Part shown: positions 10,480 to 11,777 of the stretch, piece after piece | Layout: the number at the start of each line of letters is the position of its first letter | How positions within the stretch are numbered: position 1 is the first letter of the stretch | IMG/VR virus record: IMGVR_UViG_3300033571_020867 | Span: 1 to 22,397 of that record | Origin: a virus | Direction: 5' to 3' (one strand) | DNA: 22,397 nucleotides | The notes under the pieces: model-generated | Told to the model about the DNA's origin: nothing | Databases searched by the model: none | The model's input: only the letters and a program-made list of their open reading frames with translations | Position numbers and translations under genes: made by a program

Positions 10480-10950
10480 TTAAGGTACAGGCTGTGTCGT
10501 AGTAAGTCCTACCGCTTCTGCGTATTTGAGATAGGTTTCTACAGATGCTATAACGGTTCTACAACATGGTTTTTCACAAAACTTGGATTCTATAACAAGA
10601 TTTGCAAGACTTCCAGATCCTCCAAGTTCCCATGTACCTATAGGATACACATCATTACTTGAATTAGTTAATACAGAATGTATGTTTGCTGGATCTAATT
10701 CTCCTAAAGGACCATATACCCAGGAGTCTGCGTTCGCACCTTGAGTGCACCACCAAATATAATAATCTTCGGTTTGTGTTGTACAACCGAGATCTAAAGC
10801 TACAAAATACGGTTTTTCATTATATAAATCTGGTAATGGAACATATTGTGTTTGTTCATATTCAGCTGAAATTTCACATTCATATTCTTGACCTGGAATT
10901 TCTCCTCCAAATATGAAGCACACGTTCTCAATAGTACAAGGTAATGACAT
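10480..10950 (-). CDS. small fibre/decoration protein with C-terminal [11 protein letters not shown] module
   Basis: This 156-residue protein has two recognisable parts. Residues about 8-118 follow a pattern (LYNEKPYF, then YYIWW, WVYGPLG, YPIGTWE) also found inside the 423-residue fibre (KPRYDN, EWSN, RWELYV) and the 525-residue fibre (NGKRYYRF, YYVYWDD, WVFG, GPYPTG). I read this as a shared carbohydrate-binding-like beta domain, though function is inference. The last 30 residues hold a Cys pair (KPCC), then [15 protein letters not shown], and the protein stops seven residues later with a Thr/Pro tail (TTTQPVP). It has no Ser/Thr stalk and no adaptor. It is the third of three consecutive small genes that end with this module. 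Confidence 0.7.
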   Translation of the reverse strand: [156 protein letters not shown]

Positions 10951-10956
10951 ATTTAT

Positions 10957-10973
10957 AAATTTTAAATTTTGAA
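10957..10973. repeat. 17-base intergenic repeat, copy 1
   Basis: The plus-strand sequence AAATTTTAAATTTTGAA lies in the gap between the 102-residue and 156-residue genes. It is identical to the copy at 11291-11307 in the preceding gap, at the same distance from the genes. It sits where the ribosome-binding region of the downstream gene would be. The repeat fits tandem duplication of gene plus leader; an A/T-rich translation enhancer is also possible. Confidence 0.75.
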
Positions 10974-10975
10974 GA

Positions 10976-11284
10976 TTAAGGGGTTGTTGATTGTGTTAGT
11001 CCGACAGCCTCAGCATACTTGAGGTAGGTTTCTACAGATGCAATTATACTATTGGGAACACAGTCATACACAAGACCTTTGTCCACAAGACTACTCATAA
11101 TACTAGTTGCCTCGGTGGTACTAATATTATTATTAATAAAAAATGGTACTAATCTACAAACAAAACTTGTACCATTAACGGTATCCTCGTCAACAAATCC
11201 TTTATCTAGCAAGAAATCATAATTTGTTTGACCTATGAATTCTTTTAAATCTTCATAACACGTAGATGTACAACAAGCTGACAT
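10976..11284 (-). CDS. small Cys-containing fibre adaptor with [11 protein letters not shown] module
   Basis: This 102-residue protein matches residues 64-158 of the 340-residue fibre over most of its length: [11 protein letters not shown] against [21 protein letters not shown] against MILDKGFVEY, and [18 protein letters not shown] against EATDLVEEFLDSGVVFYC. It ends with [15 protein letters not shown] and a short QSTTP tail. It is therefore a free-standing copy of a module that is internal elsewhere. Paired Cys residues (4, 5, 9, 43, 75) could bind a metal or form disulfides. Function is unknown; a small virion adaptor or decoration subunit is likely from context. Confidence 0.7.
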   Translation of the reverse strand: [102 protein letters not shown]

Positions 11285-11290
11285 AATAAT

Positions 11291-11307
11291 AAATTTTAAA
11301 TTTTGAA
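11291..11307. repeat. 17-base intergenic repeat, copy 2
   Basis: Identical to 10957-10973 (AAATTTTAAATTTTGAA on the plus strand) and located in the gap between the 155-residue and 102-residue genes. A related but shortened form lies just upstream of the 525-residue gene start near 13388 (minus strand AACAAAATTTAAATTG). Confidence 0.75.
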
Positions 11308-11309
11308 AG

Positions 11310-11777
11310 TTAAGGTGCTGGTGATTGGGTTAAACCAACAGCTTCAGCATATTTTAACCAAGTTTCTACAGATGCAAATACATATCTAAAACAATCAGGA
11401 CAACATAACACACCACTTTCATTTGATACAATACCTCTATCTAGAATTATATCAAAAAGGTCTTCATAAGATGACGTATTACCAGGAGTGTTATATGCAT
11501 CTATAACAGCATCAATTAGTGCATCAAATGGATTAACGCAGTTATCACAACTGAAACAAGGTAACTTAATATCTAAATAAGGTTCACATCCTTCTTTTTT
11601 CAAACGAATAATTGTAGCATCATCTGGTACTAAGTTGGTTGTATATCCTGCTAATAAACTTGCCGGACTAACCCCTGTTTCAAAAGGAGATTGATAATTA
11701 TCTTGATCAGAATACAGATCAAAAGGAGTACCGCTTGACCCCACTGATGTTAATATTATCTTAGCTGTTTTTGGCAT
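11310..11777 (-). CDS. small fibre adaptor: MQV-like N domain plus [11 protein letters not shown] module
   Basis: 155 residues in two parts. Residues 1-75 ([48 protein letters not shown]) appear to be a distant version of the fibre adaptor: the order of Gly-x-x-Phe, LLxG, the ATxI strand and Gly-Cys matches the four MQV-type genes. Residues 76-150 hold Cys clusters (CFSCDNC, CCPDC), the LDRGIV turn and [16 protein letters not shown]. This second part resembles residues 6-46 of the 340-residue fibre (LDKGKV, CCPCGDYYIFGSVDKFLDF). It ends in QSPAP, where fibre genes would continue into a Thr-rich linker. It may be a fibre base without a tip, or an adaptor that attaches other fibres. Confidence 0.65.
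   Translation of the reverse strand: [155 protein letters not shown]

Follow-up and report, generated by a model that had tools for sequence, protein, structure and literature searches.

The locus and its genes

The window analysed here comprises a complete IMG/VR record (22,397 bases). Its fibre region holds three adjacent small open reading frames on the minus strand (10480-10950, 10976-11284 and 11310-11777), which follow one another in the order 155, 102 and 156 amino acids (aa). All three proteins carry a common C-terminal motif, followed by a short proline-containing tail. This shared ending, which the initial annotation had pointed out, is confirmed by a profile of helix alpha-2 of the gas-vesicle shell protein GvpA (see below): the profile scores 47.6 bits with the 156-aa protein and 41.1 and 41.0 bits with the other two, and the top score in 30 shuffles of all window open reading frames was 6.7 bits. 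Hence, the shared C-termini are real and far above chance. In the window copies the motif is near-identical as protein, with synonymous third positions only 38-54% identical, which indicates that selection acts on the protein. The segments sit among virion-structural genes, and it is their protein sequence that has been conserved, which supports this part of the earlier interpretation. Recent duplication, or copying of a DNA cassette, was rejected as an explanation because the synonymous sites are saturated.

The conserved part of the 155-aa and the 102-aa protein is longer than the C-terminal helix, as both also contain an LDKG/LDRG element. The following features were assigned, with M1 to M4 denoting the modules described below:

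11559-11777, minus strand: adaptor-like N-terminal domain, residues 1-73 of the 155-aa protein; 46% identical to the adaptor in the 182-aa protein encoded by the related contig L138, direct match weak (8.8 bits)
11328-11468, minus strand: M1 of the 155-aa protein (ILDRGIV...CCPDC); M1 profile 61.1 bits, M4 second at 46.5 bits; M4 profile E 1.1e-16
11132-11275, minus strand: M3 of the 102-aa protein (...LDKGFV...FVCRL); M3 profile 24.8 bits; matches the 340-aa protein from residue 64
10985-11122, minus strand: M4 of the 102-aa protein, a GvpA-like helix-short hairpin-helix; M4 profile 50.4 bits, E 1.4e-25; GvpA 8GBS E 3.1e-7
10576-10950, minus strand: lectin-like N-terminal part of the 156-aa protein; Pfam mtd_2nd E 0.0016 (under its cut-off); weak BLASTP match to a 423-aa fibre, E 0.012
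10498-10575, minus strand: M2 of the 156-aa protein; M2 34.1 bits, M4 34.8 bits; GvpA alpha-2 profile 47.6 bits
16921-17943, minus strand: 340-aa fibre with M1 (17812-17928), M3 (17614-17757), M4 (17452-17586) and M2 (about 17338-17400), followed by a Thr/Ser linker and a fibre domain

Two of the labels given earlier to the N-terminal parts deserve comment. The adaptor label of the 155-aa protein is weak when this protein is taken alone, but it holds by way of L138, whose 182-aa protein scores 37 bits with the adaptor profile, i.e. with the N-termini of the 451-, 525-, 332- and 406-aa fibres of the window. The lectin label of the 156-aa protein stays weak.

The 340-aa fibre matches the 102-aa protein at residues 64-164 (32% identity, E 6e-20), and its three diverged motifs (GSVDKFLDF, SSIDTFLAF and ASVATYQQW), both noted before, could be verified by comparison with the related contig L012, where the equivalents read GGVETYLKF, ASVETFLQF and ASVETYLKY. 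The 340-aa protein is 47% identical to a 216-aa protein of L012 over 208 aa, and it matches the M4 profile with E 1e-4.

The shared motif is the alpha-2 helix of GvpA

Judged from sequence comparison, the shared ending is helix alpha-2 plus the tail of GvpA, which is the main point that the earlier reading of the motif had overlooked. In a search of the PDB with the phage M4 profile, only the GvpA entries 8GBS (8.6e-21) and 7R1C (3.5e-14) were significant, the next entry being at 0.26; the LDKG half and the SVET half both match GvpA, separately and in order. Profile-profile comparison of phage M4 with GvpA (hhalign) gave a probability of 99.4% with E 1e-21, and single-sequence matches to GvpA reached 1e-7 and 3e-7. 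A degenerate DNA pattern of the motif was searched in bacterial and archaeal genomes (257 Gb); among the matches listed, 116 of 117 are clearly GvpA, and the remaining one is truncated at a contig end. The same pattern in 2.9 million viral contigs retrieved phage genes and not full GvpA, in a search by conserved patterns that diverged copies escape. The initial annotation had counted a prevalence of the motif in non-virion proteins against its own proposal. Taken literally, this is what cellular genomes display, where the motif is GvpA; among the phages examined, most of its occurrences are in structural or fibre loci.

The Pfam model Gas_vesicle (PF00741) spans only GvpA residues 11-49 and stops short of alpha-2, which explains why routine annotation misses the motif. 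No window protein matches PF00741, and a protein of the related contig L140 reaches 17.9 bits, below the cut-off of 25 bits. The module proteins match no PHROG or Pfam family, and a search of 50,697 phage records gave no match to them. In the open-access literature we found no paper linking GvpA to phage structural proteins, and thus no earlier report of GvpA-like modules in phages.

In GvpA (8GBS, 7R1C) as in the phage module, an LDKGIV element is followed by the helix and the tail, and the helix-strand-strand-helix order of GvpA is predicted for phage M4 as well. However, the central hydrophobic hairpin of GvpA comprises about 20 residues and that of M4 only a few. This long gas-facing beta-hairpin is shortened in M4, and is absent from M1 and M2 or replaced there by CC..C elements. 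Unlike GvpA, the phage modules have conserved cysteines, are joined in fours or fused to fibre domains, and lie in phage structural loci where no other gvp genes were detected, in a search that covered gvpC. The minor gas vesicle proteins GvpJ, GvpM and GvpS have an LDKG helix similar to that of the phage modules; alpha-2 of GvpJ, which is encoded in the same clusters as GvpA, reads ASVDKAKEMGINWW, unlike the phage alpha-2.

A family of four-module proteins in related phages

Related contigs encode four-module proteins (M1 to M4) some 190-320 aa long. M1 comprises LDKG..., CCPxC and YVLASVETFLKYAEA; M3 consists of two helices around LDKGVVEY, followed by ICxL; M4 starts with EIIDRILDKGIVxxC and has the long hairpin reduced to a few residues. 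Each module is built on a helical LDKG element, an SVET-type helix, or both, and only M4 is predicted to keep the full helix-strand-strand-helix plan. AlphaFold2 predicts a compact structure for the single-chain protein of L143 (pLDDT 82.5, pTM 0.81), with M4 elements H152-162, E164-169, E172-177 and H178-188; this confident model is that of a relative and not of the window proteins. A Foldseek comparison of the four-module model with the PDB and with viral models returned no known whole fold.

The family reaches beyond crAss-like phages. L164 and its near-identical copies, in which other structural genes surround the locus, encode a four-module protein of 221 aa, and a 320-aa protein of the same group combines an adaptor with four diverged modules, as judged by eye. 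Unrelated large structural proteins of L184 (910 aa) and L187 (898 aa) end in CC... plus the helix. L140 encodes a 267-aa protein with four modules. In the same contig, five consecutive genes of different contents (8776-11477) end in AVPV, SVPA, TFPA, AVPA and PSPA, which resembles the VPA tail of cyanobacterial GvpA and could be a C-terminal signal apart from the helix. In L003, L014 and L016, a 1796-aa protein of another phage has an internal 12-letter motif outside the usual CC or LDKG context, which may be a further GvpA-derived copy.

Probable division of the four-module domain over three genes

Module-specific profiles identify the 155-aa protein as M1 (61 bits) and the 102-aa protein as M3 (25 bits) plus M4 (50 bits). 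For the 156-aa protein M2 and M4 tie, and the orthologous 43-aa gene in L004 is clearly M2 (37.2 versus 30.4 bits). Both the 340-aa protein and L012 read M1-M3-M4-M2. By these assignments, the three genes hold pieces of the 340-aa protein in the same order. The four-module domain of the window phage, a crAss-like phage, hence appears to be spread over three genes: adaptor plus M1, M3 plus M4, and lectin-like part plus M2. The earlier description of the small proteins as free-standing pieces of an internal fibre module stands; the pieces are of different module types and not copies of one.

The only matches in L004 (124.7 kb) are these three genes, i.e. the split set alone, and the sister phages L138 and L012 have a single-chain protein with intact SVET motifs. 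The window 340-aa protein has lost the SVET consensus and gained a fibre domain, changes to be expected if the split set took over. The L138 protein with the N-terminal adaptor of the 155-aa protein has no module and continues with a Thr/Ser linker and an ordinary fibre domain. As the adaptor is joined there to an ordinary linker and another C-terminal domain, it is the better candidate for docking. The 155-aa protein alone gave a poor model (pLDDT 51.6). This counts in favour of the split, although the cause may be a mixed alignment and not the lack of partners.

Phage context and host

The genes for the 1851-, 307-, 158-, 261- and 425-aa proteins match virion-structural and other crAss-like families and display a Crassvirales-type synteny of neck and tail genes. 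Virion-structural genes lie on either side of the module genes, both in the window and in relatives (L155-L159, for example). Bacteroidota are the hosts of crAss-like relatives, and the window genes lack Shine-Dalgarno sequences. The closest matches of the 1851-aa protein are in Leptolyngbya phage Lbo-JY46 and in Cellulophaga phages phi17:2 and phi4:1. The nearest isolate, Lbo-JY46 (PP438436.1), has crAss-like synteny and a cyanobacterial host on record. The crAss-like fibre regions of phi17:2 and Lbo-JY46 resemble the window in having ring/neck genes, an IHF-like gene, fibres and a very large tail protein, but they contain no GvpA-like module.

Comparison of CRISPR spacers with window bases 1-10470 (390 and 293 genomes) and with a stretch of L160 (391 and 395 genomes), in all cases from the orders and class tried, gave repeat-like matches only. 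The cyanophage markers searched for, psbA-type and NblA, yielded nothing above cut-off, and gvpC is absent from the 16 phage records searched.

Origin of the modules and possible explanations

Val61 together with a [VM]P tail occurs in 33 of 35 cyanobacterial GvpA sequences, in none of 18 from the Bacteroidota/Chlorobi group and in 1 of 76 other GvpA, where the titles of the records served for a manual assignment to taxon groups. With V61 and VPA, the phage tails have this cyanobacterial-type form, and L004 repeats a 12-letter stretch exactly. This tail form favours capture from a cyanobacterial-type gvpA, although the module is too short for a tree to establish which way the transfer went. 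A hand-picked and hand-aligned set of 41 phage alpha-2 copies is best conserved at S50, E52, T53, L55, K56, E59 and A60 (85-90% identical to GvpA), and the aromatic positions vary.

We consider a split GvpA-like four-module domain, whose three chains assemble on the virion, to be the best explanation of these data, and hold it with about even confidence. An ancestral phage structural protein carried four GvpA-like modules, which would have been captured from a GvpA gene of probably cyanobacterial type. The three chains would pack M1, M3-M4 and M2 together on the virion as in the single-chain relatives; the adaptor may anchor this complex in the neck or fibre region, a ligand may be bound by the lectin-like part, and the polar faces of alpha-2, which are conserved, may bind a partner, be it each other or another virion or host protein. 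The position of their genes suggests that the small proteins are present in virions.

By displaying the surface helix of GvpA, the modules might instead allow virions or free phage proteins to bind GvpC or gas vesicles, either for buoyant transport together with the vesicles or to disturb the buoyancy of the infected cell. In gas vesicles, Glu52 and Glu59 of GvpA contact GvpC (PMC9994262), and alpha-2 is a mutation-tolerant surface helix serving mainly as GvpC adapter (PMC10185304). Such mimicry would fit with both glutamates being among the best-conserved phage positions, with the gas-facing hairpin being the very part cut down, and with the cyanobacterial-type tails. However, gas vesicles sit inside cells, the spacer searches pointed to no gas-vacuolate host, neither a phage GvpC nor cyanophage markers were found, and conservation is just as strong at Leu55 and Ser50, which a structural role would require. 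We regard mimicry as doubtful, and it is likewise rather improbable that phage particles display the GvpA surface helix in arrays as a means of attachment to gas vesicles or to GvpC. If true, viruses would in this way exploit or attack the organelle that makes bacteria buoyant.

The initial annotation had taken the motif for a single docking tag, with each C-terminal helix separately attaching its own cargo to one common virion site. In favour of this, three different N-termini are followed by nearly the same C-terminus, and the helix also stands at the end of the unrelated large proteins of L184 and L187. But the segments belong to different module types and their order is fixed, several copies are internal to single-chain proteins, and the part held in common with ordinary fibres is the N-terminal adaptor. 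A single tag does not agree with each gene having another module, and the tag is rejected as sole explanation; as a reading in its own right we judge it improbable. Even less probable is the reverse direction, with a phage structural module ancestral to GvpA and gas vesicles derived from a phage protein: the diversity of the phage modules far exceeds that of GvpA, and they are spread over several phage lineages, but their alpha-2 is GvpA-type and not GvpJ-type, and the V61 plus [VM]P tails make them look nested inside GvpA. Chance similarity, helix convergence or a DNA cassette recently copied between genes might be invoked for a short motif with DNA identity to gvpA of up to 85% over 54 bases. 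The profile statistics, which already refute chance similarity, the two elements in order and the saturated synonymous sites between window copies leave this reading hardly any probability.

As far as we found, GvpA is known only as the wall protein of gas vesicles. GvpA-derived modules in structural genes of crAss-like and other phages suggest that phages have put a host organelle protein to new use in virion architecture, and that the window holds a likely case of a single domain split across three genes. The modules would also represent a natural short-hairpin GvpA fold, which may be soluble and amenable to structure solution, and they connect phages with bacterial buoyancy in a way that can be tested.

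Further observations on the window

Four fibre proteins (9114-10469, 13398-14396, 14390-15610 and 15632-16903) have long (Thr-Ser)n linkers encoded by near-tandem DNA repeats, and three of the four have the adaptor N-terminus in common. A 525-aa protein (11811-13388) has a Fib_succ_major domain (FISUMP, PF09603; E 7e-22) behind the same adaptor-like N-terminus. The 219-aa (17963-18622) and 340-aa proteins each match the C-terminal fibre domain of a 695-aa protein of L164 and its near-identical copies, an exchange of domains between phage groups.

The 261-aa reading frame (6975-7760) has a TTG start inside the 425-aa gene; a later ATG is likelier, as the relative in L138 begins with MATLRKLVSD. 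A terminator-like hairpin follows the 451-aa gene (9046-9069), and a perfect hairpin (TGTGCCAGAGG...CCTCTGGCACA) lies at about 20467-20526, between the 367-aa and 186-aa genes.
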